A stretch of DNA of 64,000 bases from a virus, in the IMG/VR virus record IMGVR_UViG_3300030202_002193, positions 20,539 through 84,538 of that record. The stretch is one strand, 5' to 3'. The notes under the pieces were generated by a model, which did not search any database, was not told where the DNA came from, and saw only the letters and a list, made by a program, of their open reading frames with translations. Position 1 is the first letter of the stretch. Each line of letters opens with the position of its first letter. A program made the position numbers and the translations under genes. Shown in pieces: positions 13,504 through 58,947 of this stretch.

Positions 13504-13513
13504 TTATTTCACC

Positions 13514-13855
13514 TCAAATGTTTCCGTATGCTCGGATTCTAATGGTAGTATCGGTAATATCTCCCGATGCTTGGGCATTAGTACCATCCATATTAACTAG
13601 ATATAGATGGAATCCGCCTTCGTAAAGTCCAGCCGCAGTACATTCTGCTGAAGCAGAGTAAGTAGCAGGTAGAGAATTTCCTGTAATTGTTACAGAAGTC
13701 AATTCTCCTAGTCCTAAAGAACTAGCACTAACTACTTCGCCTCCAGCAGTATATGTTGTTACTACAATAGCCGCATCCACGAAATACTCATCTCCGGAAA
13801 CTCTAGGCCTTGTCTGCCCTTTATGGTCAGCCAACAATGTTACAGTATGTGCCAA
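13514..13855 (-). CDS. Capsid decoration protein (probable)
   Basis: 113 residues from TTG 13855, preceded by GAGGTGTTTTAA. Beta-rich, Gly/Thr/Ala-rich, with the layout of a small cement/decoration protein (AHTVTLLADHKGQTRPRVSG ... TIRIRAYGNI). It directly follows the major capsid gene, the usual place of decoration proteins. Two consecutive TTG starts with strong ribosome sites (this gene and the next) are notable. Confidence 0.55.
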   Translation of the reverse strand: MAHTVTLLADHKGQTRPRVSGDEYFVDAAIVVTTYTAGGEVVSASSLGLGELTSVTITGNSLPATYSASAECTAAGLYEGGFHLYLVNMDGTNAQASGDITDTTIRIRAYGNI

Positions 13856-13865
13856 TTAAAACACC

Positions 13866-15209
13866 TCACTGAATGTTGGTAATTTTACCTTGACCCTTGA
13901 AGAAAGAACAACCCATTTCACCGATAGTACGGTAAAGTGCTTGGTTTCCTAGACGACCAACACCGAATGGGTTTCCGTTGGAAATACCATCTTCGAAGTA
14001 TTGTGTAGGTTTCATAACTGCCAACCAAATGTGGTCAGTATCAAGGAATAGCAAATCGCTTAGTTTGCTAGATGCGCCTCCTGTAGAAGCCATATCCTTA
14101 CAAGGAATTAGTGGGATGTCGTAGTATGTTGCAACTCTAAATCCAACTTCAGCACCCTTTACTCCACGAACTCCATTTACAGTAGGAACGATTTCCTTTC
14201 TATCCATGAATCTTTCTTGGCTTTGTAGCAAATCAGCAACCGCTTGAATAGTATCATATCCTGTTAGAATTACCTTTGGAGAACCGCCAGCAATTCGCAA
14301 GTTGCGAATCATGTTGTTAAGTAGAGTTAGAGTTAGAGAACGAACATCTCCACTAGCATATCCACTTCCAAAGTCTACTTCAGCATCTAGGAAAGAAGCC
14401 GCAGAGAATCTTTCATCTCCGTAAATCTTACCCAAGTTGTTTGATGCACTTGTGGTATCGGTTGCAATAACTCCACCATCAATAGCCAAAAGTTCTGCAC
14501 GACTTGTAACAATCTTGTTTAGTGAAAGATAGTTTCTCTCGATGTTAGATAATGCAGATACTTCACCATAGTTTTCTAGTGGAGTTAGAAGCATCATGTT
14601 TTGTGCTTCTGCGTGAGCAATTCCCATATCTTCACGCATTTGCGCTCTGATGTCACCAATTCCATCATCAATCTTTGCCATTTCCATAGCCAACTCGGAG
14701 AAGTCGAATTGATGTGCAACAGTCTTAGGACTCATAAATAGTTGAGCGTAAGTAGGAGCCATAGAACCTAGACCGTCTGCCGCAGTAGAAAGTCCAGCGT
14801 TTTCTGCTACACCACCGATTTCGTCAAATTGTGCATCATCAGCACCAATTCCACCGCCAGTACCATCTCTCTGTAGTGATTCAGCAAGTGTGTTTCCGGA
14901 ACCACCGAAAGGTCGGCTTTTCAAAACTCTCCATCCGGAAGAAGTGTAAGGTCTCTTTGCAATCATTGAAAGAGCATTTACTTCACGGTTTAGCATTGAC
15001 CAAACCTTTTGTCCGTAAAGAACATTGTAAAGTCCGGTTGTTGTAGAAATTCCTGTTACGCCGCTTGCGCCAGCGTCAGCGATATCGTGAGCAGTTTGTA
15101 CTCCTTGTACCACTCCCGCTTGCTTTAGAATATCGTTGCCGCCAAATGCGCCACCGAATCCGTATGTTTCTGCTTCTAAGTCTCTAATAGTGTTAATATA
15201 TCCTGTCAT
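13866..15209 (-). CDS. Major capsid protein (HK97 fold)
   Basis: 447 residues from ATG 15209 (GAGGGGGAATATAAA upstream; an upstream in-frame start would add nine residues). Long central region with HK97 E-loop/P-domain-like composition, including SPKTVAHQFDFSELAMEM and VKGAEVGFRVATYYDIPLIP, and a C-terminal strand/helix set. Directly downstream of the protease-scaffold gene and upstream of decoration proteins, the classic head order. No cysteine-rich or membrane features. Codon use is more G/C-rich than its neighbours, as expected for a highly expressed gene. Confidence 0.8.
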   Translation of the reverse strand: MTGYINTIRDLEAETYGFGGAFGGNDILKQAGVVQGVQTAHDIADAGASGVTGISTTTGLYNVLYGQKVWSMLNREVNALSMIAKRPYTSSGWRVLKSRPFGGSGNTLAESLQRDGTGGGIGADDAQFDEIGGVAENAGLSTAADGLGSMAPTYAQLFMSPKTVAHQFDFSELAMEMAKIDDGIGDIRAQMREDMGIAHAEAQNMMLLTPLENYGEVSALSNIERNYLSLNKIVTSRAELLAIDGGVIATDTTSASNNLGKIYGDERFSAASFLDAEVDFGSGYASGDVRSLTLTLLNNMIRNLRIAGGSPKVILTGYDTIQAVADLLQSQERFMDRKEIVPTVNGVRGVKGAEVGFRVATYYDIPLIPCKDMASTGGASSKLSDLLFLDTDHIWLAVMKPTQYFEDGISNGNPFGVGRLGNQALYRTIGEMGCSFFKGQGKITNIQ

Positions 15210-15222
15210 TTTATATTCCCCC

Positions 15223-16398
15223 TCAATTTCCAGCAAGCCTGTTCAAGTCGGCCCAACTCATGTTAGCAACATCATCCATTGACGGAATTGCCACGGATGG
15301 TGCAGTTTTGGATTTGAGAATTTCAGATGTTTCCGAAGAAAATGACTTTCTCAATTCAGCCAATTCTTCTTTAAGTGCGCTAACTTCAGACTTTGCATCA
15401 TAGTTAGCCTTGGAAATAATAGTTTCTCTTTCTGAAACTTCAGACTTAAATCTGTTAGCGAAAGTCTTTTCTAAGTTTCCTAGAGCAATCTTTTCTAGTT
15501 GTTCTGCTTTGTATTCTGAATATGCTTTCTCGATTACATCAGGAGAAAGGTTTAGTGAAGTAATTTCACCGTTGTCAAAGGCCTTAATGACCTTTGCTTG
15601 CTTTTCTCCTACTGGCTTGCCACCACTAATTACTACACGGTCAGCAGGTTCCCCTGTTTCTCCTTGTAGCGAAGTTTGTGCCTTGTATTCTACATCCATG
15701 TATTCTGAAGTCTCTACTTCAGCATCCATCAATTCTTCGTCCATAGCCGCCGCATTCATTTCTAAGTCTGCGTCTGCCGCAGGGGATTTCTCCTCTTCTT
15801 CTTTCCTTAGAGTATTGACTTCCTCTAATAGAGTGTCAAGTTCCTCTAATGCCTTTTCTAGTTTGTCGGTCATTTTTGTTCCCTCTTTTTCTTGTTTCAA
15901 AATGTCAAATTTCGCTTCAGGATTAATTCCTTTTTCGCATATGGTGACTTCGTGTAATTCTAGTTTGCTAATTTCGCTATATTCGCCTAATTCCGAATTT
16001 TGCTTCTTAACTTTCCGAAGTGCTTGTCCCCCTATGCTAAAAGACCTTAATGTTCCTTTGCGAATTCCCCTGTTTATTTCTTTTGCTTTTTCGATGTCAT
16101 CTCTTAATTTTATTACTACAAAAAATCCCACATCATCTACTTCAGTTTTCCATATTTTTCCATTTTTATCTCTATATGATTTTACTACTTCTCCTACTTG
16201 GACATTTGAATGGTTTGTCATTACATTTCTAAATTTTGCATTCTCCATGTATTTTTCTACTGCATCTTCTAGTGCTTTAAGTGTGATTAAATCATTTTGC
16301 TTATCTACGATTTCTATGCTTGCATATCCCCCAATCATTAAATCGTCTTGGCTTTTGAGAATCAGGAAATCATTGTTTTGTATAACGGCAGTTTCCAT
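15223..16398 (-). CDS. Prohead protease fused to scaffold
   Basis: 391 residues from ATG 16398. The N-terminal ~165 residues carry a HK97-type prohead protease layout: a His in MTNHSNVQVGEVV, a serine region GTLRSFSIGGQA, and the preceding VDDVGFFVVIKL strand. The C-terminal ~200 residues are acidic, coiled-coil rich (LEKALEELDTLLEEVNTLRK) and end in a Ser/Ala/Pro segment, as expected for an internal scaffold. Fusion of protease and scaffold in one chain is known in several tailed viruses. The protease would process capsid and internal proteins, which bears on the tag hypothesis. Confidence 0.8.
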   Translation of the reverse strand: METAVIQNNDFLILKSQDDLMIGGYASIEIVDKQNDLITLKALEDAVEKYMENAKFRNVMTNHSNVQVGEVVKSYRDKNGKIWKTEVDDVGFFVVIKLRDDIEKAKEINRGIRKGTLRSFSIGGQALRKVKKQNSELGEYSEISKLELHEVTICEKGINPEAKFDILKQEKEGTKMTDKLEKALEELDTLLEEVNTLRKEEEEKSPAADADLEMNAAAMDEELMDAEVETSEYMDVEYKAQTSLQGETGEPADRVVISGGKPVGEKQAKVIKAFDNGEITSLNLSPDVIEKAYSEYKAEQLEKIALGNLEKTFANRFKSEVSERETIISKANYDAKSEVSALKEELAELRKSFSSETSEILKSKTAPSVAIPSMDDVANMSWADLNRLAGN

Positions 16399-16438
16399 TT
16401 TCCTCAACTCTTCGTTTTTTAATTAGGTATTTAATGCT

Positions 16439-18952
16439 TTAGGGTTTTTCCGTATTTATTGACAACTTTGCATATTTATCGTTATTGATATTCCAAATCC
16501 CTTTATCGCCTTCTTTGTCTGCTGGCTCTTGTTTATAGCCAGTCCAAGCCAACCACATTTCTTTATCGTCTACTGGGATTACTCTAAAGTGCATTTTAGT
16601 TTCAAATTTATTCCCCTTTATGAAATACTCATGGTAGCCATCTCTTTGTATTCCTAGAGTAATATCTCCTTCGTCTATTACTTTGGAATCAGGGGAGATG
16701 GTAGTAGCGACTTCAGCAGGGAATTTCCCCGCTTTACCGAATAGGTTGAATATATCATCATCCGAATTAATATCAATAGTCCAATACATTGTCTCTTCAG
16801 ATAATTTAATCGCAAATGTTAGGTTATCGTCCTTTCTAGAATATACCTTAAACTGGCCCTCCCTATATTCTGAAGGAGTTTGATATTCTTCTTCACTTAA
16901 CATTATCTTATCAGAATCCGCCATGAATTTTTTCTCCTTATGGCTAAAAGTAATTCCATCTCTAGAATTAAACCATTGAGTTAATTTACCCATATTGCTA
17001 TCCAATATACTATCATATAACCTTCCGACATCCTTAACTAAAAAATTATGTAGTTCTTTCACAGTCATAGGCCCTCTTTCTTTCAATCTTTGAAATACTG
17101 AAACAGTTAATTCACTTTGTTTAGTTTTCATTATGTTTTCTGCATCGGCCTTCCAAGAATTTAAATTCATCATAGCATGTTTAGACATTAGATTATCTTC
17201 TTCGAATTCATACAAAGCAAAGCCGTCCATAGATTTTAGAATTGCTTCCCCATGAACATAATCTGTAATCAGAATTCCTTTTTCTAAAGCCTTGGCCTTG
17301 AACTTCAGACTCTTTTTAGTTTCCTTAGATAGCATCTCTAATGTAACTATCTTATCAGGATATTCTACTTCGGGTATTTCTATAACACTAGAACCATAAA
17401 TGGTATATTTCTCACCATTGGTTTTTACTTCGTCCACCTTAACTCTAAGTATGTCTCCTATATCTACATCCACTTTGGTATTATTTGCCTTACCTACATT
17501 CATATATTTTATTTTATCTAATTCTTTAATGTGCTTTCCTTCTCCTTCTGCCGGACCAGCACCCAATGTGTATGAAAACATATTTGATTTTGTTTTCTTT
17601 TTATCTAAGACGATTAAATCTAAATCGACAAATTTCTTCCACTTAACCCATTTAGGATTTTTCTTAGTGCCTATGTAATATGTAGAAGTAATGTCTTTAA
17701 TAACCACTCCTTCAGCAGTAGGCATCTCCATAATTTCTTTACTATATTCTTCAATGTCTTTTATGCTATCCGCAATTCTAGTATCTTTCTTGGAAGGGAA
17801 TTGCAAATGGTCATCCGAGTGCATGGAATAATTATTGAATAGAATGTTTATTCTTTCGGATAGTTCTTCTGAAGCCATATTTCTCTCATCATGTCTCATG
17901 ATATCAAAAACATGAGCCTTTAATTCAGCATCCTGATATTGGTTCTTGAATACATGGGAAATAGTATCTGCACGATGTAGGGCTTCTTCTCCATCGAACA
18001 AAATTAATTCTGCATCAAGAATACAATCTCCGAAGTGCTTTCTCTTAATTACCTCGACTTGCCTTTCACATTTGTCAGTAATGTCCTTTTCATTGTAAGA
18101 ATATATTTTTACATTGTTATCTATCTTGTGAATCTGTATTCTCATACCATCATATTTTTCTTGAACAACCCATTCTCCGCTAAAGCCTTGTAATTCTTTG
18201 AGGTCATCTATCTCAAATATTCTATACATTGGCTTATTAGGTATTATGAAATCTACTTGGGCCTTTTCTTCTTGAGATTTTTCTGCTTTTTTAATCTCTA
18301 CACCTAATAGGCGATTCCATTCTTCCTCCGTGTTTTTAGATAGGAAGAATAGTTTTAGTAGAGATAGACCATTCTTAAATCTAGATTCTATTTTCTTAGA
18401 ATCCTTTCCATCTCCATAATGCTCTGTAATATATAACGGGATATCTTTAGGGTCTAAGTCTAATCCTTTTAGACCAATAGTAATATCGTCCGGCTCTATA
18501 TCTTTTATTGAATATAATTCATCAGATAAAACTTCATCATCGTTTCGTAGGGCATAATGAATAAACTTAATCATAGTCCCGCTATCTTCCATTAATGCTT
18601 CTAGGACATTTCCTTTGAAGCGTTTTGCAAATGGGTCTTGAACTTCGTCTGATTCGAAGCGTAGCATTTTAATTGCATTGTAGACCTTCTCGGCAGTAGG
18701 AGTTTCAGGATTCATTGCATCTTTAGATTGTAAGATGTCTTCTGCTAGGTATTGTTCTAGTTGCCCGCCCAAGTAATCTAAATTATCGTATTCATCTCTT
18801 AGGTCTTCTATTGTTTTTCTCCATCTAGAGCCATAGGTTTTAGAATCACTCTTAGCAGATAGGTAGGCCACTCTAGTCTTTTCGAAGAGAGAGAGGATTT
18901 TATCAGAAACGGATTCAGTTTCCTTCTCAAATAGAAGGCCGGTCAGTGGCAT
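16439..18952 (-). CDS. Large multidomain ATP-dependent DNA ligase
   Basis: 837 residues. The nucleotidyltransferase core shows motif I EKYDGMR (Lys266 the AMP acceptor), DAELILFDG, EGVVIKD and KWVKWKK. N-terminal ~230 residues are helical. After the ligase OB part come a winged-helix-like segment (SVFQRLKERGPMTVKELHNF) and a C-terminal beta-rich domain (TFAIKLSEETMYWTIDINSD ... HEYFIKGNKF ... DKEMWLAWTGYK) that resembles a divergent LigD-type 3'-phosphoesterase. It is one of two ligases in the window and is unusual in being embedded in the head cluster, next to the protease gene. It may act on packaged or incoming DNA; that role is inference. Confidence 0.8.
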   Translation of the reverse strand: MPLTGLLFEKETESVSDKILSLFEKTRVAYLSAKSDSKTYGSRWRKTIEDLRDEYDNLDYLGGQLEQYLAEDILQSKDAMNPETPTAEKVYNAIKMLRFESDEVQDPFAKRFKGNVLEALMEDSGTMIKFIHYALRNDDEVLSDELYSIKDIEPDDITIGLKGLDLDPKDIPLYITEHYGDGKDSKKIESRFKNGLSLLKLFFLSKNTEEEWNRLLGVEIKKAEKSQEEKAQVDFIIPNKPMYRIFEIDDLKELQGFSGEWVVQEKYDGMRIQIHKIDNNVKIYSYNEKDITDKCERQVEVIKRKHFGDCILDAELILFDGEEALHRADTISHVFKNQYQDAELKAHVFDIMRHDERNMASEELSERINILFNNYSMHSDDHLQFPSKKDTRIADSIKDIEEYSKEIMEMPTAEGVVIKDITSTYYIGTKKNPKWVKWKKFVDLDLIVLDKKKTKSNMFSYTLGAGPAEGEGKHIKELDKIKYMNVGKANNTKVDVDIGDILRVKVDEVKTNGEKYTIYGSSVIEIPEVEYPDKIVTLEMLSKETKKSLKFKAKALEKGILITDYVHGEAILKSMDGFALYEFEEDNLMSKHAMMNLNSWKADAENIMKTKQSELTVSVFQRLKERGPMTVKELHNFLVKDVGRLYDSILDSNMGKLTQWFNSRDGITFSHKEKKFMADSDKIMLSEEEYQTPSEYREGQFKVYSRKDDNLTFAIKLSEETMYWTIDINSDDDIFNLFGKAGKFPAEVATTISPDSKVIDEGDITLGIQRDGYHEYFIKGNKFETKMHFRVIPVDDKEMWLAWTGYKQEPADKEGDKGIWNINNDKYAKLSINTEKP

Positions 18953-18958
18953 AAGGCA

Positions 18959-19375
18959 TCACTTATAGATAGTCTTTATTGTATTAGCGTCATTTTTTAT
19001 TGCGAACACTTTTACAGGTTGAATATCGGGTATGCTTCTTCCTCTTTTTGTAGGTATCTTTTTTAGATTTCTAAAGGACTCAACTTCTCTTTTTCCGTCC
19101 TTAAAATAAATAACATCATATCCTATTATTTCTTTTTCTGCCTTCTTAATCTTATATTCCTCTTCTACACCTGCAAGACCGTAGCCTTCCTTGTCTTGAT
19201 TAGGAACTTTAATAGTGACATTTTCAGCCTTTGGTCTTTTGACCTTAACTTCTTCTTCATCCACTTCCAAAGGCATTCTATCTCTGTTTTCTTCTAGTAG
19301 AGTTTGCTTTGCAATTCTAGCGGCTCTAATTGCTCGCTGAATTTTTGCTTCTTCTTTTGTCATTCTTTCCGGCAT
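18959..19375 (-). CDS. Basic small protein, unknown
   Basis: 138 residues; ATG 19375 is chosen because AAGGTGAGTAAA lies upstream, giving MPERMTKEEAKIQRAIRAAR. Strongly charged and helical at the N-terminus (RIAKQTLLEENRDRMPLEVD), beta-rich later (EIIGYDVIYFKDGKREVESF). Part of a run of small co-translated genes between portal and protease. Function not recognised. Confidence 0.55.
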   Translation of the reverse strand: MPERMTKEEAKIQRAIRAARIAKQTLLEENRDRMPLEVDEEEVKVKRPKAENVTIKVPNQDKEGYGLAGVEEEYKIKKAEKEIIGYDVIYFKDGKREVESFRNLKKIPTKRGRSIPDIQPVKVFAIKNDANTIKTIYK

Positions 19376-19376
19376 T

Positions 19377-19568
19377 TTACTCACCTTCGTATTTACCTTT
19401 TCGTAAAAGTTTATTAATTTCACCTAGCACTTTGAATCTATCATCATAAGATATTCTACCAGCCTCTTCTGCTAATATCAACAAACTATTTAATTGAGAC
19501 AAAACTTCATTAAGTTGCTTCATGTATTCCTTATCGTCTTTCTTAATATCGTAATAATCCCAAGTCAT
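19377..19568 (-). CDS. Small acidic helical protein (MTWDYYD)
   Basis: 63 residues from ATG 19568, with AGGTGAGTGAA upstream. Its N-terminus MTWDYYDIKKDDKEY resembles that of the next two genes (MTWDYYNEKEIKK, MNWDWYEDIIK), a W-D-Y variant of the shared tag. Helical; function unknown. Confidence 0.55.
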   Translation of the reverse strand: MTWDYYDIKKDDKEYMKQLNEVLSQLNSLLILAEEAGRISYDDRFKVLGEINKLLRKGKYEGE

Positions 19569-19573
19569 TTCAC

Positions 19574-19837
19574 TCACCTATTCTCCATAATATCTTCAAC
19601 CGTCACTTCAATGAGAGTTTCTTCGCCCTCATCATCTTGTACTTCAGTAGAATATTTTTCACCAATAGCCTGTTTTAGAATATCTTCAACCATCATATGT
19701 AATTCTCTTTCAGTTATACCGATTTCTTCCGGAAGTACATCTTCTCCGTTCCTTTCCAAAAGAACGCTAACTCTCATAGACATACTAAATATATCACTCT
19801 TTTTTATTTCTTTTTCATTGTAATAGTCCCAAGTCAT
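19574..19837 (-). CDS. Small acidic helical protein (MTWDYYN)
   Basis: 87 residues, ATG 19837 preceded by GGAGGGTTCTAG. N-terminus MTWDYYNEKEIKKS parallels its neighbour, which suggests duplication. Otherwise a helical acidic protein (PEEIGITERELHMMVEDILK). Overlaps the next upstream gene by four bases. Confidence 0.55.
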   Translation of the reverse strand: MTWDYYNEKEIKKSDIFSMSMRVSVLLERNGEDVLPEEIGITERELHMMVEDILKQAIGEKYSTEVQDDEGEETLIEVTVEDIMENR

Positions 19838-24199: not shown

Positions 24200-25797
24200 A
24201 TTATATTGCCCTCCATATCTATTTTTGTTCCATCGGCTCTAACTTCATGATAACTATACGCATTAACTAACCATCCGGTAGTATCACTAATCCAATTAAC
24301 TAAAGCGTCCTGTATGGTGTCGGTATCATCTTCTTCTTCAATTCCTAATTCTTCGGCAGTTACGGCCATTTGCTGAAATAAGTCTAATTCTTCATCAGCG
24401 TCGTAATCAACTTCAGTAATTACAAAAGTTCTTTCTTGTTGCTTAACTATCATTCCACCAATATTTTCTAATTCATCCATTATACTCATCTTACAATTAT
24501 CATGCAACTTTGCTACTGTTTCTATGTCTATACCATCTTTGGTGAAATCAAAACCAACATGGTCTTTATGATTTTCATATTTCATTAGTTTGAAGATTTC
24601 ATCACATCTACCCTTATACCAATCAGCCTTCTTGTGTGATTTTTTCATGCGAATTAATTCTAAAAGTAGTTCTGCGTTTTTACCCTTCATTCTAAAATGA
24701 GGTAGGCACTTATTCAGTAATTCCCCAACATCTGCTTGAGAATAAAAGTTTAGGCGATTAACAGGCCTAGTATTTTGTGGGGATTTTTGGTCTAAGTGTA
24801 AGCGACCGATTCCTAATGCTTTATGAATCTCAATCATAAATGCCTTCCCCCTATCTCCCGTCGCTACTAATCCAACTCTAGGATTCATGTTTCTATCGAC
24901 TGTAATGTAGCCATCTGAATCAATGAATGCGGCAGTATAAGCATATATGTTCTTCTTAATTTCATTATCTAATTTATAATATGAACCATCAATATCGGTT
25001 ATGTCTAACTTCTTAATTAGTTGAGGAATTATTTTCATCGTATTTCTTTTGTAAAGTCTAGTCGGCATACTATCTAGGATTTCTCTTGCACTAATTCCTT
25101 GGTGGCTACAAACTGCCTTTAGAATAAAATCATTAGTTTCTTCTTTTATTGTTTTACGGATTTTAGATAAGTCACTAACTTGTTTTCTGAATTCTCTTTT
25201 AGCATTATTCATAGTTTTTTGCAAAGAAGAATATTTTTTTCCATATACCATGTCTTTCTGTTCTAGTTGTGCCTCCCAAAACTTACAAATGGAATCTATC
25301 ATTTTCCTTCTATTTTCTACATCCTTAATTCCGTGGATTTTTAACAGGTCGCCTTCAGTATAGCGCATTTGTTGTAGGGCGGGTTTGTATGGTTTGAGCC
25401 AATAAATGCTATTTACGCATTTGTCTAAGTGGTCGGAATATCCATCAATTAAGGTATCAATGGCCTTAGACATCTTATTCCTATGTTCTCCCTTTAGTTT
25501 TCTTCGTTCCTTTCTCATTGTCTTGATAATATCCGGAACATAAGTATCTTGAACTAAATATTTATCAGGAAAAATATCTAAGTGTTTTCTTGCTTGAGAA
25601 GCATTGATTCTAAACTCTTGACTTATTTTGGTAATGGCTTCAGATTCATCTACTATGTTCAACCCTTGAATAAAACTAGTTAGTTTAATATCTAAGGATT
25701 GCTCAATTTCAGATTTAGCATTTTCAGCCTCTTCTTCTAAATCAGCCACCTGCTCTAGTCTTTGAGCCGCTTCTCTTTTTTCATCCGGAGTTGCCAT
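24196..25797 (-). CDS. LAGLIDADG-domain protein between terminase and portal
   Basis: 533 residues, ATG 25797 with GGTGATATT upstream. N-terminal ~280 residues are charged and helical; around residues 285-300 the sequence YTAAFIDSDGYITVDRN is a LAGLIDADG signature with the acidic DSDG pair, followed by a DNA-binding-like half (PRVGLVATGDRGKAFMIEIH). A single such motif suggests homodimer or a half-domain. The C-terminus is acidic (VDYDADEELDLFQQMAVTAE). Homing endonuclease or a domesticated DNA-binding packaging/portal-region protein are both possible. Its position between terL and portal, and its virion-gene size, argue for domestication; this is inference. Confidence 0.6.
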   Translation of the reverse strand: MATPDEKREAAQRLEQVADLEEEAENAKSEIEQSLDIKLTSFIQGLNIVDESEAITKISQEFRINASQARKHLDIFPDKYLVQDTYVPDIIKTMRKERRKLKGEHRNKMSKAIDTLIDGYSDHLDKCVNSIYWLKPYKPALQQMRYTEGDLLKIHGIKDVENRRKMIDSICKFWEAQLEQKDMVYGKKYSSLQKTMNNAKREFRKQVSDLSKIRKTIKEETNDFILKAVCSHQGISAREILDSMPTRLYKRNTMKIIPQLIKKLDITDIDGSYYKLDNEIKKNIYAYTAAFIDSDGYITVDRNMNPRVGLVATGDRGKAFMIEIHKALGIGRLHLDQKSPQNTRPVNRLNFYSQADVGELLNKCLPHFRMKGKNAELLLELIRMKKSHKKADWYKGRCDEIFKLMKYENHKDHVGFDFTKDGIDIETVAKLHDNCKMSIMDELENIGGMIVKQQERTFVITEVDYDADEELDLFQQMAVTAEELGIEEEDDTDTIQDALVNWISDTTGWLVNAYSYHEVRADGTKIDMEGNII

Positions 25798-46822: not shown

Positions 46823-47171
46823 AGAATGGGAAGTTTGTATGAGAAGAAATGGCTCAATTATGATGAAGGTAAATGTAGACCCTGTAATCATGGATAGAGA
46901 TACTTGCATATCAGTTTTATACGATAGCGTTTCTTGGAAAGAGAATGAAGTAATTAAAACAATGAAGAAAAAGGGATTGAAAGACATCTTGAAACAACAG
47001 GCTAGATATCTAGCATATTATGGATATATAGAACATGCACCTCCCAACAGAAAAGAATTAATTGAAGAAAATGAGCGATATAAAGATACTTGGTCATTAG
47101 AGAAATGGGATATGGTTGCTAGAGTTTTCGACAGGCACTTCCCCGATTTCAGATTTTTAGCAGGTGAATAA
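46809..47171 (+). CDS. Small protein, unknown
   Basis: 120 residues from ATG 46809 (GAGGAGGAATGAAT upstream, two residues in from the longest reading). Mixed alpha/beta, MSKGKEWEVCMRRNGSIMMK. Overlaps the preceding gene's end. Function unknown. Confidence 0.55.
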   Translation: MSKGKEWEVCMRRNGSIMMKVNVDPVIMDRDTCISVLYDSVSWKENEVIKTMKKKGLKDILKQQARYLAYYGYIEHAPPNRKELIEENERYKDTWSLEKWDMVARVFDRHFPDFRFLAGE

Positions 47172-47172
47172 G

Positions 47173-47796
47173 ATGAATATATTTGCATTATCAAAATGCC
47201 CTGTAGAAGCGGCTCAACAAATGATAGACAAGCACATAGTCAAAATGCCAACTGAAAGTTGTCAAATGTTACACACTAATTCGCTCTATTTTTTGTTTTG
47301 GAATTGTCATGGTAGGGAACCTTCTCTAAAAGAATTGAAGGAGTTTCACAAGGAATCACATTTTTCCTATATGATGAAACCTGCAATGCTTAACCACCCT
47401 AGCACAATTTGGGCTAGACAAAACAAAGCAAATTACATGTGGCTATACAATCATGCACTTGCACTTTGCAAGGAATACACTTTCAGATATGGTAAGATTC
47501 ATGGTACGGAAAAAAGAGTCTTGGATAGTTTTACCTTTTCTTATGAAGACGAAGACTTAACTCCAGTGACTATTGCTATGGCTGACCAATACAGAATCCC
47601 TCAAGAAAAACATACTTGGGAATTTGTAATTAAAAGTTATCAGCAGTATTATTTAGAAGGCAAATGGAAATTCGCTTCTTGGAAAAAGAACCGAACTCCT
47701 ACTTGGTGGCCCAAAGACCAACACAAGAAAATGAAGAACAAAGAAATATTGCGCTTCAATAAATTATGGAATGCTAGTTTGGAGATGATTAAATGA
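47173..47796 (+). CDS. Conserved marine-phage protein (MNIF/DKHxVKM)
   Basis: 207 residues from ATG 47173 (AGGTGAATAAG). The pattern MNIF ... P-x-EAA ... DKHIVKMPTESCQML ... HPSTIWARQNKANYMWLYNH ... WPKDQHKKMK recalls a family found in many marine phages and bacteria starting MNIFxL...DKHVVKM, function unknown in that family. Its high Trp/His content suggests an enzyme fold. Confidence 0.6.
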   Translation: MNIFALSKCPVEAAQQMIDKHIVKMPTESCQMLHTNSLYFLFWNCHGREPSLKELKEFHKESHFSYMMKPAMLNHPSTIWARQNKANYMWLYNHALALCKEYTFRYGKIHGTEKRVLDSFTFSYEDEDLTPVTIAMADQYRIPQEKHTWEFVIKSYQQYYLEGKWKFASWKKNRTPTWWPKDQHKKMKNKEILRFNKLWNASLEMIK

Positions 47797-48673: not shown

Positions 48674-48850
48674 ATGGTAGGATTAAAAAATATGGAAAGT
48701 GGACTAGGAAGTTGTATTAACTGCACTGGTGTAAGAGCAAGTACTGTTTGTGATAAAAGTCACAAGCCCATTTGTACTTCATGTGTAAGAATTGTGATTA
48801 AAAATGCAACTCAAGTAGAAGTTAGAGATAGAAGGAGGTATATTAAATGA
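48674..48850 (+). CDS. Small zinc-ribbon protein
   Basis: 58 residues from ATG 48674 (AGGAGGAATAAAT upstream). Cysteines at 14, 17, 26, 34 and 37 (CINC ... CTSC) form a zinc ribbon. Overlaps the next gene's start by four bases. Confidence 0.6.
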   Translation: MVGLKNMESGLGSCINCTGVRASTVCDKSHKPICTSCVRIVIKNATQVEVRDRRRYIK

Positions 48851-49992
48851 CAGATGAATTATTGATTAAGCCTAAGAGAAAATTAGGCACTGGAAGATAT
48901 GATAGGAAGTTAATAGAGAGGATGATTGATTTATCCGTAGCAGACAATTATGAAGATGCGGCTAAAGAATGGATTGCAACCGGTAATGTATATTGGGGAG
49001 ATATTGATGTGCCTAGTTGGTGGGAAGATAGGAGAGGCAGTTGTCTTTGTGGGCATAGCATCGTATATCATTTCGAAGTAGAGAATACAGAAAATGGTGA
49101 AATGATTTTAGTTGGTTCTGACCACATTAATTCTTATCACATTCTAAAGCAAATTGCACTTTCTACAGGAATGCAAGAATCTATGATTACAGATGAAATG
49201 ATAGATGAATGGATGAAGGTAAGAGTCGCTTCTATGATGCAAACTGCTTGGTGGCATAATAACGGTGAAATGTTCACAAGAATGTTTGACGCAGTTAAAG
49301 AATATGATATTAGGGTAAATGTAAGAGTTCTGAAGTGGCAATACAACGGAGAATATATGAGGAATATGCCTGTTACTGCAATACGCAAAGCGGGGAAAGG
49401 TTCTCCATCGGATTCGGACTACAAGATGGCTTCTATCGTTTGGAGATGGAACCATCCTGATAATCCTAAAGCCCAAGTAAATACTAGAGGCTACCCTACC
49501 GATAAACTTTGGACCGATTTAATTATGTTCTATTCTAGAATACAGGAATATATTCAGCAATGTGAAGATGAGGATATGAGGAATGCCCATCTTCTAAAAA
49601 CTGCGGAAAGGCGCAGAATGCTAAATAGCGTTTCCCTAAACTTAATTGAAGAAGATAGGAGGGCAATGGAACAGGCCATATTTGAAGATAGTTGCGACTA
49701 TTTCGGCATTGTTGGATTCCACGATTTCGATATAGAAAATAGCGAAATAGATGATTGGTCTAAGAGGTTTCTAAGGGACACAAAGCAACGGATTATTTCA
49801 GGCTATGACCTATCCACTAGACAGTTAATGAAGTTAGAAGAAATTCTAAGAGATGATACTCCCCCAACCCCTAAGCAAATTAGATATTTACTTAGGTTAG
49901 GTTATGATGGAGAAGTAGAAGGGTTGAGCAGACAAAGGGTTAGCAAATTAATAGATGATTTGATAGCAAAAGGCACAGGACTCGAATACTAA
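48847..49992 (+). CDS. Zinc-containing phage-type protein
   Basis: 381 residues. Near residue 60 the sequence GSCLCGHSIVYHFEVENTEN ... MILVGSDHIN matches a phage C-x-CG ... VGS-H/V domain seen in many phages (function unknown). The C-terminus (PPTPKQIRYLLRLGYDGEVE) resembles small 'T-x-Q-I-x-Y-L-x-x-LG' modules found in phage helicase and host-interaction proteins. Predominantly helical middle. Role unknown. Confidence 0.5.
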   Translation: MTDELLIKPKRKLGTGRYDRKLIERMIDLSVADNYEDAAKEWIATGNVYWGDIDVPSWWEDRRGSCLCGHSIVYHFEVENTENGEMILVGSDHINSYHILKQIALSTGMQESMITDEMIDEWMKVRVASMMQTAWWHNNGEMFTRMFDAVKEYDIRVNVRVLKWQYNGEYMRNMPVTAIRKAGKGSPSDSDYKMASIVWRWNHPDNPKAQVNTRGYPTDKLWTDLIMFYSRIQEYIQQCEDEDMRNAHLLKTAERRRMLNSVSLNLIEEDRRAMEQAIFEDSCDYFGIVGFHDFDIENSEIDDWSKRFLRDTKQRIISGYDLSTRQLMKLEEILRDDTPPTPKQIRYLLRLGYDGEVEGLSRQRVSKLIDDLIAKGTGLEY

Positions 49993-50045: not shown

Positions 50046-50246
50046 ATGATAAGTTTAACAATTTTGAATGAAACAGGACATACTTCGCTATCCCTTGAGG
50101 CTAGTGAAGTTATAGAGCAGATTAATACCCATCCTACAGATTGGGTATTTATTGATGGAGAAATGGTGACAAGAGAGAACCTTTCTTCAGTCAATTGGGA
50201 CGATGTTGATTCAGTTGTTTTGACTCCGGCAATTGTCGGTGGTTGA
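50046..50246 (+). CDS. Ubiquitin-like (ThiS/MoaD-type) protein ending in GG
   Basis: 66 residues; ATG 50046 chosen because AGAGGTGAATTGT lies directly upstream (an in-frame GTG at 50037 would hide that site). Strand MISLTIL, strand HTSLSLEA, helix SEVIEQINTHPTD, then WVFIDGEMVTRENLSSVNW and DDVDSVVLTPAIVGG, with the order and terminal Gly-Gly of ThiS/MoaD-type beta-grasp ubiquitin-like proteins. It would be adenylated at the C-terminal Gly by an E1/ThiF-type enzyme; such an enzyme and a JAMM protease are encoded 2.5 kb downstream in the same gene series. Protein conjugation or sulfur transfer are both possible. Confidence 0.75.
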   Translation: MISLTILNETGHTSLSLEASEVIEQINTHPTDWVFIDGEMVTRENLSSVNWDDVDSVVLTPAIVGG

Positions 50247-50295
50247 ACCAACTCAACGGGAAGGGGGAAGCCCCTATTCTATTGGAGGTTTTTCG

Positions 50296-50559
50296 ATGTA
50301 TTTTAGAAATGCAGAAGAATGTAAAAGAGTGATAGAATCTTTTATGGAAGATTTGAGTCCTCTAGATAGAACAAAACTAAATATCGTTTTCTCCAATTTA
50401 GGAGAAAAGACAGACAGGGAAAAACAATGGAGTATGATACAGGCATTTAGAAAGTGTCTTTGGAGTATTCCTGAAGCGGTAGAAAGAGGGTTTACTAATT
50501 GGTTATTAGAAGAACTACCAAACAGAAAGGCCGCACTAGAATATCATGGGGAAATATAA
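50296..50559 (+). CDS. Small protein after Ubl gene
   Basis: 87 residues from ATG 50296 (GGAGGTTTTTCG upstream). Charged helical protein (FRNAEECKRVIESFMEDLSP). A longer reading from 50233 would overlap the Ubl gene without a ribosome site. Function unknown. Confidence 0.5.
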   Translation: MYFRNAEECKRVIESFMEDLSPLDRTKLNIVFSNLGEKTDREKQWSMIQAFRKCLWSIPEAVERGFTNWLLEELPNRKAALEYHGEI

Positions 50560-50727
50560 ATGAAAGAAAAAGACCCCGAATACGAAGAAAGCAGTTGGTC
50601 GTATAAAAATAGGATTGCGACTAAATGTAGAATATGTGGTAGGCAACTTCTCCTACCCGAAGAAATGAAAAAGGAAGTACATGCAGAATGCGATAAAAAT
50701 TTAGATAATAATACATATATGATGTGA
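50560..50727 (+). CDS. Small zinc-ribbon protein
   Basis: 55 residues from ATG 50560 right after the preceding stop. CRICGRQ and later HAECD form a Cys/His set. Function unknown, in the Ubl/TFB operon. Confidence 0.55.
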   Translation: MKEKDPEYEESSWSYKNRIATKCRICGRQLLLPEEMKKEVHAECDKNLDNNTYMM

Positions 50728-50731
50728 TAAG

Positions 50732-51964
50732 ATGAGATTATACATAAACAATGGAAGTACAGATAGACTAACAACTGAAATAACTATAGAAGAAGGAAGA
50801 GATTTCATACCTAATGGACGCATTTATACTGTAAGTCCAAACTGGAATGCCAAGGGAGACCCCTTGCTTTCAGGATTAAGCAGTTTTTGGCAAAAACGCA
50901 TTAGGTGTAGGTATAACTACGAAAGCGTGCTTAAAATAAAAACCTACCCTATTCATATTAAGAAGAATAAGGGCTATTTCATAAACGGAACTAGAATCGG
51001 AATCAAAGGTATGTCTATGGTCTTAGCGAGACTAACCTATGCTTCGTGTTTAGAACAAAGTGATTCTAAGATGACATCTATTTTTATAGATGCTATGAAT
51101 ATACCCGAACAAGTTTCATATGCGTTAGAAAATCGTGCGCCGTATAGTTTTTATGAAAATTATACTTTGCAAGAAGTACGATTGAATGTAGAGCCTATTG
51201 GGAATAAAAAATATGCGATAGAGATATCTGATTCTATTTGGGGTGAAATTTCACAAAGGGATTTAGTAACCTTTGTCAATACTTATCGTGATAACCTGAA
51301 GAGAGGTTCGTGGAGTCAATTAAGCCCTAAGAAATTATATGGGAAACTTATGCAAGCAGAACCATCCGATTCAGAACTGAAAGTAATGAAAGCCTTTCTT
51401 TCCCAAAACAGAACCCAAGATATAGTCGAAAAAAGAGCAAAGGAATTAATTCAAGAAACTTGTGATTTAATGCCTAACAATTTCTTCTATTACAAGATAG
51501 ATGTAGAGGAAAACGGGACTATAGAGAAGGCAGGGCTGAAAATTACTAACCAAGATAACGAATGGTTATTTATTAGAGGTAGAAAATACGATTGGATGAT
51601 TCGTAAGGCGAGTAATCGTGCTAGTAGACAATCAGTAAATACCTTCGTGTATAATCAAGTAACTAAGAGGGAGAAGACAGGACAAATTAAAAATGAAGAA
51701 GGCGTATGGGTAGACACCTACGAAGAAATAACCTCCTTCCAATGGAGAGGGCCTATTTGCGTAGATAATCTAGCATTTAACGGCGCACAATCTATTGGCG
51801 ACCAAATGGTAGCAAGAGCATATGCCTTCCTGAATGATTCTGTTACTATTAATTTAGTAAGTACAATTAATTCCTATCTAAACAAAAAAGACATGTCTGA
51901 AAATAGATTAGACTTTGAAGGAATGATAATGGATGATGTGGAGTCCTTGATATGTCCTGTGTAG
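50732..51964 (+). CDS. Large protein of Ubl/TFB cluster, unknown
   Basis: 410 residues, ATG 50732 after GTGATAAG. Mixed alpha/beta. A C-terminal stretch SFQWRGPICVDNLAFNG followed by a helix recalls an E2 core (HPN...ICL-D-x-L) in a loose way. It sits between the Ubl and the TFB/E1/JAB genes, so it could be a target, an E2-like partner or an unrelated early protein. The overlap of 13 bases with TFB places it in one operon. Not recognised as any family. Confidence 0.5.
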   Translation: MRLYINNGSTDRLTTEITIEEGRDFIPNGRIYTVSPNWNAKGDPLLSGLSSFWQKRIRCRYNYESVLKIKTYPIHIKKNKGYFINGTRIGIKGMSMVLARLTYASCLEQSDSKMTSIFIDAMNIPEQVSYALENRAPYSFYENYTLQEVRLNVEPIGNKKYAIEISDSIWGEISQRDLVTFVNTYRDNLKRGSWSQLSPKKLYGKLMQAEPSDSELKVMKAFLSQNRTQDIVEKRAKELIQETCDLMPNNFFYYKIDVEENGTIEKAGLKITNQDNEWLFIRGRKYDWMIRKASNRASRQSVNTFVYNQVTKREKTGQIKNEEGVWVDTYEEITSFQWRGPICVDNLAFNGAQSIGDQMVARAYAFLNDSVTINLVSTINSYLNKKDMSENRLDFEGMIMDDVESLICPV

Positions 51965-52782
51965 AGTGTGGTAGTAGTAATTTTAATTTTGATGAAAGAT
52001 TGGGAGAAAGGATTTGTATTAATTGCGGTTTAGTAGAAATAACCGAGATATTTGAACAAAGCGTTTCCCAATACAATTCAAATGGAGAATTAGTTAGAGA
52101 GTCTACCTTTAGGAATACCTTGGGTACTACTAATAGGAATAGATATGATGTTAGCGAAAGCAACATACAGACGGGCCTAGTTTACTGCAATCTAGTTTTG
52201 TCTTCTATCGCAACAAACCATCCTCTTAGAGATAGGGTAGAAGAATGCTATATTTCCCTCTTTAGAGGGAATGTATTTAGTAACAAATACAGTTATGAAA
52301 ATAGAGCAACGGCCTTGGTATATTATGTTTTGAAGGAAAATGGGATTGCTATTAAGATGAGTGATGTTCGTAAGGAATTTGAATGTGATATGCGCAAGGT
52401 GAATAAATTAACTAGGGTGATTGCAAAACACTTTGGTAATTCCGGTGTATATGCTAGGGACAATATAGTTTCTCTTTTAGATAAGACTTCTAGAGAAGTG
52501 AATGATACTGCGGAATTCATTACATTGTGTCAAGAGATGCACATAGCCGTCAATCCTATTTTAGAAGAAAATGATTTTACTAAAGGGAGGACTTATTGTG
52601 CCGCAATATGTCTAATAGTAGCGAGTGCTAATTTAATGCAAATAAAACAAAGGGACTTGGCTAAACGAGCCGGATTTGATATTTCCACGATTCGTGTTCA
52701 GGCTAAGAAGATTCTAGGTATGTTAGGATATAACAATCTAAAAGAAATTAGTGGAAAAACAATAGGAGATATGATAAAATGA
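51952..52782 (+). CDS. tfb: Transcription factor B (TFIIB homologue)
   Basis: 276 residues. Zinc ribbon with Cys3, Cys6, Cys22 and Cys25 (CVECG ... CINCG), then a linker with the B-finger area (NSNGELVRESTFRNTLGTTN), and two cyclin-like repeats (SIATNHPLRDRVEECYISLF; DFTKGRTYCAAICLIVASAN), including a helix-turn-helix end RAGFDISTIRVQAKKILGML. TFB recruits RNA polymerase to TBP-bound TATA promoters in archaea, so this virus could redirect host transcription. Placed directly before the E1-like gene with a four-base overlap. Confidence 0.85.
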   Translation: MSCVECGSSNFNFDERLGERICINCGLVEITEIFEQSVSQYNSNGELVRESTFRNTLGTTNRNRYDVSESNIQTGLVYCNLVLSSIATNHPLRDRVEECYISLFRGNVFSNKYSYENRATALVYYVLKENGIAIKMSDVRKEFECDMRKVNKLTRVIAKHFGNSGVYARDNIVSLLDKTSREVNDTAEFITLCQEMHIAVNPILEENDFTKGRTYCAAICLIVASANLMQIKQRDLAKRAGFDISTIRVQAKKILGMLGYNNLKEISGKTIGDMIK

Positions 52783-53333
52783 GAAAAGTATTAATTATAG
52801 GTGCAGGTGGAATTGGGAGTTTTCTAATTCCTCTATTGAAAAAGACGGGACTGTATAACATTACAGTAGCAGACCCCGACATTGTAGAGAATAAAAATCT
52901 ACCCTACCAAAATTACGAAAGGATAGATGTAAATAAAAATAAAGCGAGTGTTATGTATGAGAGATATGGGCTATCGGGTGCGATTCCTCATAAGATTCTA
53001 ACACTTGGTCAAATGAAAGGATTTGATTTAGTTATATCTTGTGTAGATAATCTAAGTTTACGAAGGACATTATATCGTAGCGATTTTACTTGGTTAGATT
53101 TGAGAGCGCAAGGTCGCAATGCGGCTTTTATCTCTTCAGATTCTAGTCCTGAAATGTGGGACACAATGTTGGCTGGACCTGATGGAAGTTTTTCTTGTCA
53201 AGGAGATTCTTGGGATGGAAGTAATAAAAATGTTCACTTTATGCAAGTGGCAATTGCTGGAATGGCGGCTGAATGGATTCAGCGTTGGTTCAACAAAGAA
53301 GATGTTGGGCTTTTTAAGGTGGTAAATGTATGA
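52779..53333 (+). CDS. E1/ThiF-like adenylating enzyme
   Basis: 184 residues. The Rossmann start has GAGGIGS (residues 8-14), then VADPDIVENKNLPYQNYE (the DxDxVExxNLxRQ equivalent) and VISCVDNLSLRRTLYR. These are the ATP and Ubl-tail binding elements of E1/ThiF/MoeB enzymes. It lacks the two C-x2-C zinc pairs of ThiF/MoeB and is short (184 versus ~245 residues), but keeps a Cys region (FSCQGDSW) that could act in thioester or sulfur transfer. Coupled by ATGA overlaps to TFB and to the JAMM protease gene. Confidence 0.75.
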   Translation: MRKVLIIGAGGIGSFLIPLLKKTGLYNITVADPDIVENKNLPYQNYERIDVNKNKASVMYERYGLSGAIPHKILTLGQMKGFDLVISCVDNLSLRRTLYRSDFTWLDLRAQGRNAAFISSDSSPEMWDTMLAGPDGSFSCQGDSWDGSNKNVHFMQVAIAGMAAEWIQRWFNKEDVGLFKVVNV

Positions 53334-53806
53334 CTAAAATAATGGGAGATGAATTAGGCCCCGACTATAAAGTTGGCATAGTTTCTACTTGGGAATTAAA
53401 TCCTGAAATTACAGAAGAGTTCCTATCTGAAATATGGAAGGCTTCTACAGAAATACTTCCAAAATTGGAAGTTCAAGTTGTTATTGATAATAACGACAGG
53501 CTACACATTAGTAGTGGTACTGCTGGCTATGTTGATTTCAAAGTAGACCCAATCGGAATGAAACTTCCTATCAAGTGTTGGATTCATACCCACCCATTCG
53601 GTTCTGCGTATTTTAGCGGAACTGACATTAGAACAGTTTCTATTTGGGAACCTATGATGGAATCTGCAATAGTATTAGGTGGCAATGGCCACTATGGAGT
53701 TTGGGAAAAATTCAAACCAAAGCAATTGATTATCTATCGAGATTATGAATATGAGAGAGTGCAACTTTGGGGATATGGTACTTATGGATATGGTGAAGAA
53801 GAATGA
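53330..53806 (+). CDS. JAB/JAMM metalloprotease
   Basis: 158 residues. IHTHPFGSAYFSGTD (His86, His88, Ser96, Asp99) is the complete JAMM zinc-protease motif H-x-H-x7-S-x2-D. JAMM enzymes remove ubiquitin-like proteins from targets or process Ubl tails. Together with the Ubl and E1 genes it forms a minimal reversible conjugation set. Overlaps both neighbours by four bases. Confidence 0.8.
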   Translation: MTKIMGDELGPDYKVGIVSTWELNPEITEEFLSEIWKASTEILPKLEVQVVIDNNDRLHISSGTAGYVDFKVDPIGMKLPIKCWIHTHPFGSAYFSGTDIRTVSIWEPMMESAIVLGGNGHYGVWEKFKPKQLIIYRDYEYERVQLWGYGTYGYGEEE

Positions 53807-57274: not shown

Positions 57275-57503
57275 ATGGATTCGCATTGGTAGAAAATTAA
57301 CCAAATTAGCGAATAATAAAAACAATAGTGTTTTATATCCTTTTGATGATAAAGAAAAAGAACTGATAAAGGAAATGATTCTAATAATAAATGGAGTGAT
57401 AAAATATGACGATGAAAATGATGTCGAGACTACTAGAGAGTTTGGAGGACAAGAAACCAACACAACAAATATCTTTAGTTTCCAAAGAAATTCTAAAATT
57501 TAA
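57261..57503 (+). CDS. Small basic protein overlapping ligase
   Basis: 80 residues from ATG 57261 (GGTGGGAAAG upstream). Starts MKRNEWIRIGRKLTKLANNK. Its C-terminal third overlaps the ligase start by 98 bases, a long overlap that leaves some doubt; both frames have plausible ribosome sites. Confidence 0.45.
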   Translation: MKRNEWIRIGRKLTKLANNKNNSVLYPFDDKEKELIKEMILIINGVIKYDDENDVETTREFGGQETNTTNIFSFQRNSKI

Positions 57504-58947
57504 GGAATCGGATAGAAGGATAGTATTCCAAATATTATCTTTAGAATATCCTTCCAATAACATTGGTCTATCTAAGGCTAAGAAATGGATTGCTAAATCC
57601 GTAGACGCTTTCGAAGAAGAAATAGATTGGTCCTATAGTATGTCTAATGATATAGGATATGTTGCCCAAGAATTAGATTTACGGAAGACCAACGATAAGG
57701 ACATCCCCCTAAATAGAATACTAAACATTCTTAGTTTAGATTGCGGAGGAATAACCTCGGACGAATACATTCTTTTTTCTTCATTGTTTTCTGAAATGTC
57801 TGCAATAGAAAGAAAGTGGTTTTCTCGATACTGGCTTAGGGTTCCTAGGAACGGTATAAATGTAGGAACGGTACAAAAGATGTTGGCTAAAACCTATGAT
57901 AAGAAACTTTCAGAAGTTAAATCACATCACAATTTTAATGACATATCTACTTTAGTAACATATTATGAAATGGGAGAAACGCCTTCGTGCATTCTCCAAC
58001 ATGGCAAGTTCCTAAAACCTATGCTGGCAAAAGAAATTCCTATGTCCAAGTGGCCAAAGCAAAAAATTGTAGACTATAAATATGATGGGAATAGATACCA
58101 AGTCCATAGAAAAGGCGAAAGTGTTATTGTTTTCAATAGAAAAGGAAAGATTGTAACTCCTCAATTTCCTGACATAGTAGACCTTGTTAGAAAGTACTCT
58201 GTAGATTGTATCTTGGATGGGGAAATTTACCCCATTAAAGACGATGGAAGCCCTGCCGAACACAAAAGGATGGGGACAAGGGTACACTCTAAAGACCATG
58301 CTAAAGCAGTACAGGATTGTCCGGTAAAATGGGTTGCGTTTGATGCCCTAATGATAGATGGAGAAACTTTAACAGATTTACCTTACCACGAAAGGCTAGA
58401 GAAAATGTCTATGGTTCCTGACCAAGCACATAGAATGGAAAAGGGTGGAGATGTTTTAGCATTTTACAATGTAGCAATTAACGATGGTTTCGAAGGGATT
58501 ATTGTTAAAGATGCTAACCATAAATACGAATCGGGCAAGCGGTCAATTTCTTGGGCTAAGTATAAACCTCCTAGAATTGATTTAGATGTAGTGATAACTT
58601 CTGCTAGATACGGAGAAGGGGCTAGGTCGGGATTTTTTGCTTCTTTTGATATTGCAGTAAAAAGCGATGATGGTTTTATGGGCGTAGGTTCTGTAGGAAC
58701 AGGACTTTCTGAAAGAGAAATGATTCAATTAACTAGTAGACTTAGGACACTGATAGAAAGTTACAAAGGGCAGACTTACAACTTTGCCCCAAAGGTAGTG
58801 GTACAGGTTACTGCTGATTTAATTTCTAGAGATAGCAAAGGGAACATTGGTCTAAGGTTCCCACGGATAGTAAGAATAAGAGAAGATAAATATGTTGTAG
58901 ATATAAATACCGTTACTGATGTAATTCAGACCATGACGGGATTTTGA
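57406..58947 (+). CDS. ATP-dependent DNA ligase
   Basis: 513 residues from ATG 57406 (GGAGTGATAAAAT). Nucleotidyltransferase motifs: Lys225 in DYKYDGNRYQ, ILDGEIYPI, VAFDALMIDG, EGIIVKD and SWAKYKP. N-terminal ~190 residues form the DNA-binding domain of archaeal/eukaryotic ligase I type, and a C-terminal OB-fold follows. Order with replication genes RFC and SSB marks it as the replication ligase; the second ligase sits in the head cluster. Confidence 0.9.
   Translation: MTMKMMSRLLESLEDKKPTQQISLVSKEILKFKESDRRIVFQILSLEYPSNNIGLSKAKKWIAKSVDAFEEEIDWSYSMSNDIGYVAQELDLRKTNDKDIPLNRILNILSLDCGGITSDEYILFSSLFSEMSAIERKWFSRYWLRVPRNGINVGTVQKMLAKTYDKKLSEVKSHHNFNDISTLVTYYEMGETPSCILQHGKFLKPMLAKEIPMSKWPKQKIVDYKYDGNRYQVHRKGESVIVFNRKGKIVTPQFPDIVDLVRKYSVDCILDGEIYPIKDDGSPAEHKRMGTRVHSKDHAKAVQDCPVKWVAFDALMIDGETLTDLPYHERLEKMSMVPDQAHRMEKGGDVLAFYNVAINDGFEGIIVKDANHKYESGKRSISWAKYKPPRIDLDVVITSARYGEGARSGFFASFDIAVKSDDGFMGVGSVGTGLSEREMIQLTSRLRTLIESYKGQTYNFAPKVVVQVTADLISRDSKGNIGLRFPRIVRIREDKYVVDINTVTDVIQTMTGF

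Follow-up and report, generated by a model that had tools for sequence, protein, structure and literature searches.

SAMP conjugation in archaea works with an E1 enzyme and a JAMM protease and without an E2, and includes the turnover of TBP2 (PMC4895103), while the precursors of Caldiarchaeum ubiquitin and of SAMPs are processed by archaeal JAMM proteases, which cleave behind the Gly-Gly (PMC6043591). Related genes are also known from mobile elements: pairs of ubiquitin-like protein (Ubl) and JAB occur in phage tails (PMC1779556), a ThiF/MoeB gene has been reported as one of the auxiliary genes most often carried by archaeal viruses, in a paper that also touches on ubiquitination (PMC8276007), and numerous de-SAMPylases have been proposed for Borgs (PMC12660748). 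The Jab genes of cellular archaea rarely adjoin Ubl genes (PMC2948915), in contrast to the virus described here, in which they are clustered. We analysed a stretch of 64 kb, here referred to as the window, which corresponds to positions 20539-84538 of the 84.5-kb tailed-virus record IMGVR_UViG_3300030202_002193, assigned by gene content alone to the magrovirus kind. The window holds a trio of genes encoding a Ubl, an E1-like enzyme and a JAMM protease, and we describe from computation the gene set, its conservation and order, its catalytic signatures, the tails of the Ubl and the fold of the JAMM. The searched literature, which left out the magrovirus papers of Philosof 2017 and Prabhu 2025, contained no account of such a trio in archaeal viruses. 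We consider, with a probability of roughly 0.55, that the trio is a virus-encoded, E2-less Ubl conjugation and deconjugation module of the SAMP/Urm1 kind. The three genes are:

50046..50246, + strand: Ubl, 66 residues, ubiquitin/ThiS-like with a Gly-Gly end (open reading frame, alignment, AlphaFold2 and Foldseek)
52779..53333, + strand: E1-like adenylyltransferase of the ThiF superfamily, 184 residues (Pfam ThiF, relatives, profile and tree)
53330..53806, + strand: JAMM/MPN+ metalloprotease, 158 residues (motif, AlphaFold2 and Foldseek)

An earlier note on this DNA had named a 66-residue protein ending in Gly-Gly, an E1 with GAGGIGS and DPD, and a JAMM with HTHP-x6-S-x2-D, and all of them were found on the + strand. 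The operon that it described, with all genes overlapping together with TFB (a TFIIB-like transcription factor), was recovered in part: 4-nucleotide ATGA overlaps join TFB, E1, JAMM and the next open reading frame (ORF), but the Ubl lies 2.5 kb upstream of the E1, with at least three genes between them. The Ubl is part of the same co-directional cluster without overlap, a gap of about 49 nucleotides separating it from the likely start of its neighbour (ATG 50296).

Scans of viral contigs with the E1 and the Ubl profiles retrieved 235 and 188 relatives, respectively. We chose 30 related virus records by their terminase, so that the trio itself was not a selection criterion; all three genes were present in 24 of them and none in the other six, and no record had a partial set. 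Among the near records (at least 76 kb, n=20), the trio was complete in 19 and wholly absent in one. In the distant branch (54% terminase identity, n=10), it was complete in four records longer than 90 kb and in one of 47 kb, and absent in five fragments of at most 49 kb, where absence says little as completeness estimates are not given for the records. The order Ubl, E1, JAMM on one strand was found in 88/88 distinct loci holding all three. The all-or-none presence is far from what chance would give, and because of the strict co-occurrence and the fixed order we regard the three proteins as one system. Comparison with close relatives gave ratios of nonsynonymous to synonymous substitution (dN/dS) of 0.04-0.08 for the Ubl, 0.13-0.17 for the E1 and 0.16-0.25 for the JAMM; all three genes are thus under purifying selection, which is strong for the Ubl. 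Two irregular loci were also observed. One 184733-base record (L195, G004) has two complete trios, with about 90 kb between them, and is probably two genomes joined in assembly, and in another record (L193, G002) the JAMM is split in two frames at 24272-24677, by a frameshift or a sequencing error.

The Ubl of this virus ends in LTPAIVGG, with no residue after Gly-Gly. VGG was found at or near the end of 75/75 distinct Ubls, and 61 of these have a tail: one residue follows Gly-Gly in 8 and two residues in 53, whereas 14 have none. Of the 53 two-residue tails, 45 end in Tyr, Leu or Cys. Mapping of the tails on the E1 tree gave a minimum of five changes of state, or of four if only strongly supported branches are counted. 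By their ends, the tailed Ubls look like precursors. No lysine is present in 26 of the 75 Ubls, the one of this virus included, while 47 have one and two have two; E. coli ThiS is likewise lysine-free. So little lysine would speak against chains and be in keeping with single tagging.

The AlphaFold2 model of the Ubl (predicted local distance difference test, pLDDT, 83.9) has the order beta-beta-alpha-beta-beta-helix-beta, which is the element order of a beta-grasp, and E. coli ThiS matched it in Foldseek with 23-24% identity. In a viral structure library the best match was an uncharacterised phage protein (4.3e-4, template modelling score, TM, 0.60), with several giant-virus ubiquitin-like proteins at weaker scores. 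A beta-grasp fold is likely from the model, with suggestive matches. Pfam ubiquitin-like families gave no match to 15 Ubl members. The Ubl can be aligned end-to-end with E. coli ThiS, the Gly-Gly ends coinciding, and its sequence score gave p=0.01 against ThiS and 0.004 against MoaD; these values are weak and not significant without Gly-Gly. An identification of the Ubl as ThiS or MoaD by sequence was rejected on these grounds.

The JAMM has the active-site motif HTHPFGSAYFSGTD, i.e. HTHP-x6-S-x2-D, and Glu47, His86, His88, Ser96 and Asp99 are present in 104/104 distinct JAMMs, so that by sequence it carries the JAMM/MPN+ active site (Glu and HxH-x7-S-x2-D). The Pfam Prok-JAB match is at E=0.001 with 19.4 bits, below the cut-off of 25. 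Its AlphaFold2 model (pLDDT 77.5) found as best PDB matches in Foldseek MPN/JAMM domains or complexes that hold one, among them Rpn11, P. furiosus JAMM1 (TM 0.51 on the target), Caldiarchaeum CsRpn11 and AMSH, and the predicted structure accordingly has the MPN fold.

The E1 matched Pfam ThiF at E=9.6e-16 (58.1 bits, against a cut-off of 28.1) and carries GAGGIGS, DPD, K55, CVDN and the SCQG cysteine. Lys55, Cys88, Asp90, Arg109, Arg113 and Cys140 (SCQG) are kept in all 107 distinct E1s and the nucleotide loop in nearly all of them; the active-site residues of the ThiF/E1 superfamily are conserved also in 12 E1s of PRTRC plasmids and phages. Having GxGGxGS, the acidic pair, the Lys and the Asp, the protein is placed by its motifs in the ThiF/E1 superfamily, and we infer E1 activity. 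The reduced size and the lost zinc pairs to which the earlier note had pointed hold well, as the enzyme has 184 residues and none of the 107 distinct relatives has any CxxC. It scores far below the cut-offs of cellular families (ThiF 46.5 against 275, MoeB 26.3 against 377 and UbaA 25.6 against 450 bits), and PADLOC E1-E2 models match solely its nucleotide-binding part.

With the magroviral E1 profile, the E1s of PRTRC plasmids and of phages reached 35-62 bits, crAss-like phages being highest at 62, against 29 bits for E. coli ThiF and MoeB. It aligned over its full length with the PRTRC/phage ThiF set (1.7e-26), and the SCQG cysteine was aligned with the SC of that set. In a maximum-likelihood tree, which has long branches and includes few cellular E1s, the magroviral E1s adjoin those of crAss-like phages and a Xanthomonas jumbo phage with 93/93 support. 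On profile and tree, the E1 groups with the crAss-like phage E1 and not with E. coli MoeB or ThiF. A cellular origin from close host homologs was also considered and rejected, since a scan in which each prokaryote species was represented by one genome gave a single E1 relative, a mis-binned magrovirus contig in a Maricaulis metagenome-assembled genome; the E1 family appears to be virus-specific. The contig in question (L178, with TFB, E1, JAMM and GroEL) is a case of contamination in a bacterial reference genome. These links to crAss-like phage and PRTRC plasmid E1s, as well as the Ubl tails and the spread of the trio through the virus group, are new relative to the earlier note.

The JAB-ThiF pair of crAss-like phages (cr126_1, DAC15) likewise brings an E1 and a JAMM-type metalloprotease gene side by side, within the replication half of a tailed-virus genome, and its motif HSHHILGAFFSGTD resembles the magroviral HTHPFGSAYFSGTD; Salmonella phage Arash, too, has an adjacent JAB gene whose motif is similar. 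On the other hand, crAss-like phages have bacterial hosts, proteins about twice as long and no TFB, and no GG-ended Ubl of the magroviral kind was found in the whole cr126_1 genome or within 3.5 kb in its relatives. Since the pair recurs in crAss-like phages and Arash and cr126_1 has no such Ubl, the E1-JAMM core seems common to tailed viruses, while an own GG-ended Ubl has so far been seen only in magroviruses.

The PRTRC cassette of bacterial plasmids has the same combination of a small Ubl-like protein (protein C), a JAMM-like protein (protein A) and an E1 (ThiF), in addition to protein B. However, the magroviral E1 scores only 45 bits against the PRTRC ThiF cut-off of 144.75, and protein C ends in LGTKG, unlike the viral Ubl; homology of the two was rejected, as no similarity was found. 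The archaeal SAMP/Urm1 system (UbaA E1, HvJAMM1 and SAMPs) shares with the virus the E2-less combination of Ubl, E1 and JAMM and the Gly-Gly end, and P. furiosus JAMM1 is close in fold to the viral JAMM, but UbaA differs from the viral E1, as its score above indicates. Caldiarchaeum ubiquitin with Rpn11 likewise combines a Ubl precursor having residues past Gly-Gly with a neighbouring JAMM protease (PMC6043591); its CsUb tail has 9 residues, against 0-2 in the viral Ubls, and E2 and RING genes are present there, with none found in the virus. The bacterial Ubl defence operons of the CBASS, Bil and 6A types differ in that an E2 domain is fused to or next to the E1, and none was found here.

According to the conjugation module that we favour, the Ubl would be made as a precursor with one or two extra residues in most magroviruses and in its mature form in this virus, and the JAMM would trim the tail and expose Gly-Gly. 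As tail removal is needed before adenylation, the JAMM is the obvious candidate for trimming. The small E1 would then adenylate the Gly-Gly end, possibly passing the Ubl on through its invariant SCQG cysteine, and in the infected cell the activated Ubl would become linked to proteins of host or virus, from which the JAMM would also remove it. We infer these four activities, adenylation, trimming, conjugation and removal. Tailless lineages, this virus among them, retain a JAMM with all catalytic residues, so the JAMM must do more than trim; deconjugation would still require it and would explain its retention where trimming is needless. The second substrate would most simply be Ubl conjugates, the alternative being a small-molecule adduct as in CysO/Mec+. 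A transcription factor as conjugation target is a fair guess from the adjacency of TFB and the control of TBP2 by SAMP (PMC4895103), and the tuning of the virus's own transcription factor, put forward in the earlier note, has gene adjacency as its sole basis.

Several observations weigh against this module. The NLxRQ arginine is found in 0/107 E1s, although it is also lost in some phage E1s, including crAss-like ones, and the E1 begins at the first Rossmann strand and is without the N-terminal arginine region of MoeB; with these arginines missing, even adenylation is no more than putative. In the PDB, the sequence that the E1 profile matches best is that of MccB, an E1-like enzyme whose substrate is a peptide and not a Ubl. 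Ubiquitin-like proteins and ThiS are the best PDB matches of the Ubl model, but at weak E values of 0.03-0.08. No E2 or E3 was found, and E2-like families sought in the tested neighbouring proteins gave no match. Also, a CysO-type JAMM cuts a Ubl-cysteine adduct, so that JAMM retention alone is no proof of protein conjugation, and the virus could make use of sulfur-transfer partners of its host.

The last points lead to the main rival, a sulfur carrier, in which the JAMM would trim the Ubl, the E1 would activate its Gly-Gly end, and sulfur loaded there as a thiocarboxylate would be passed on to tRNA, to a nucleotide or to some small molecule, in the manner of QbsE/QbsD (thioquinolobactin) or CysO/Mec+. 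These systems share with the virus a small GG-ended Ubl, an E1 and a JAMM, and the pairing of JAMM and Ubl is known in sulfur systems; the tails past Gly-Gly and the resemblance of the Ubl model and alignment to ThiS would fit as well. QbsE has a two-residue tail, in the form GGCF, which the viral GGCY and GGSC tails resemble. However, the viral records lack a cysteine synthase or any other tested sulfur partner: PALP (cysteine synthase), ATP_bind_3 (tRNA thiolation) and rhodanese were found in 0/25 viral records, with 13-14 control genomes positive. Moreover, no sulfur gene was found among the cluster ORFs, the E1 has no rhodanese domain, and the tailless lineages retain the JAMM. We consider a sulfur carrier unlikely, and the tRNA thiolation or CysO-type transfer suggested in the earlier note found no dedicated partner among the three families in the 25 records, though host partners are possible. 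Of that note's interpretation there stand the one system, most of the catalytic residues and a Ubl predicted to be ubiquitin/ThiS-like; the overlap of all genes does not, and the sulfur role and the tuning of TFB are so far not supported.

A role in counter-defence or host interference appears improbable. Here there would be no dedicated cycle of conjugation; the Ubl and the small E1 would block the SAMP system of the host by mimicry, and the JAMM would strip host SAMP tags off viral proteins. The reduced E1 without the known ATP-contacting arginine would suit a mimic, and the proposed Borg de-SAMPylases offer a precedent (PMC12660748), but the loop, Lys, Asp and Cys of the E1 and the Gly-Gly of the Ubl are conserved, which would be needless for a pure mimic, and the three genes are always together. 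A module for virion assembly like that of lambda tail I/K, with Ubl and JAMM serving to build the tail, is very improbable and was rejected on gene location, as the trio stands on the opposite strand among genes of replication and transcription (TFB, chaperonin, ligase and RFC), far from the tail genes (1-9 kb of the window), and lambda-type modules have no E1.

The other genes of the cluster are:

51952..52782, + strand: TFB, a linked gene (Pfam Zn_Ribbon_TF, 1.7e-7)
50732..51964, + strand: 410-residue conserved protein between Ubl and TFB (conserved in relatives, no family match)
50560..50727, + strand: 55-residue CxxC...HxxxC mini-protein, zinc-finger-like, conserved in the cluster (ORF and relatives)

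TFB stands next to the E1 also in the relatives. Nearly all relatives keep the 410-residue protein and the mini-protein in the interval from Ubl to TFB; neither matched a family, and it is possible that they are substrate adaptors. An E2-like role for the 410-residue protein was rejected, as it matched neither PRTRC B nor crAss-like phage neighbours nor Pfam. A conserved 381-residue protein of no assigned family (48847-49992, + strand) is usually found upstream of the Ubl.

The GC content is 36%. In the left half of the window, the - strand carries the late genes (tail tube, tape measure, capsid protease, SU10-like capsid protein, portal and large terminase), and in the right part the + strand carries the early genes (TFB, group I chaperonin, ATP-dependent ligase and RFC-like clamp loader); a split family B polymerase (PolB) lies elsewhere in the record, outside the window. 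The split PolB, GroEL-type chaperonin, TFB, ligase, RFC, HK97-type head genes and two opposed gene clusters are the traits of Magrovirales, and the anatomy matches the family Aoguangviridae of that order, whose viruses are tied to marine Poseidoniales archaea (PMC10768690). TFB and ligase, searched in a phage collection, gave no match to named magrovirus records, and Rfam and tRNA scans of the window gave no matches. Other observations include two DNA ligase candidates, one of 837 residues with an ATP-dependent ligase domain in the late block (16439-18952, - strand) and one of 513 residues in the early cluster (57406-58947, + strand), and a pyrimidine dimer DNA glycosylase-like protein (47164-47796, + strand). 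On L326, a sliding-clamp gene (26-763, + strand) adjoins the split PolB and weakly matches a bacterial beta-clamp (1.5e-4) in an archaeal virus, and the late block has a 2115-residue open reading frame (13286-19630, - strand).

The presence of the trio in nearly every genome tested suggests that these viruses, a large group whose hosts are abundant marine archaea, carry their own protein-tagging or sulfur-carrying system into the cell. E1-JAMM pairs were already known in phages and plasmids; the complete set, including a Gly-Gly modifier of its own, was found nowhere in the searched literature. More tentatively than the module itself, and at a little short of even odds, the trio may be a complete and self-sufficient core tagging system of an archaeal virus order that reprogrammes the infected cell by tagging viral or host proteins with a virus-specific Ubl made with a short tail, by means of a viral JAMM and a minimal phage-type E1, without an E2. 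With its minimal 184-residue E1, tail-switching Ubl and JAMM, the trio allows the link between sulfur carrier and protein modifier to be tested on just three small proteins. Should the trio conjugate, archaea would have a ubiquitin-like system that is virus-borne, strongly selected and nearly universal in an abundant virus group of the surface ocean.

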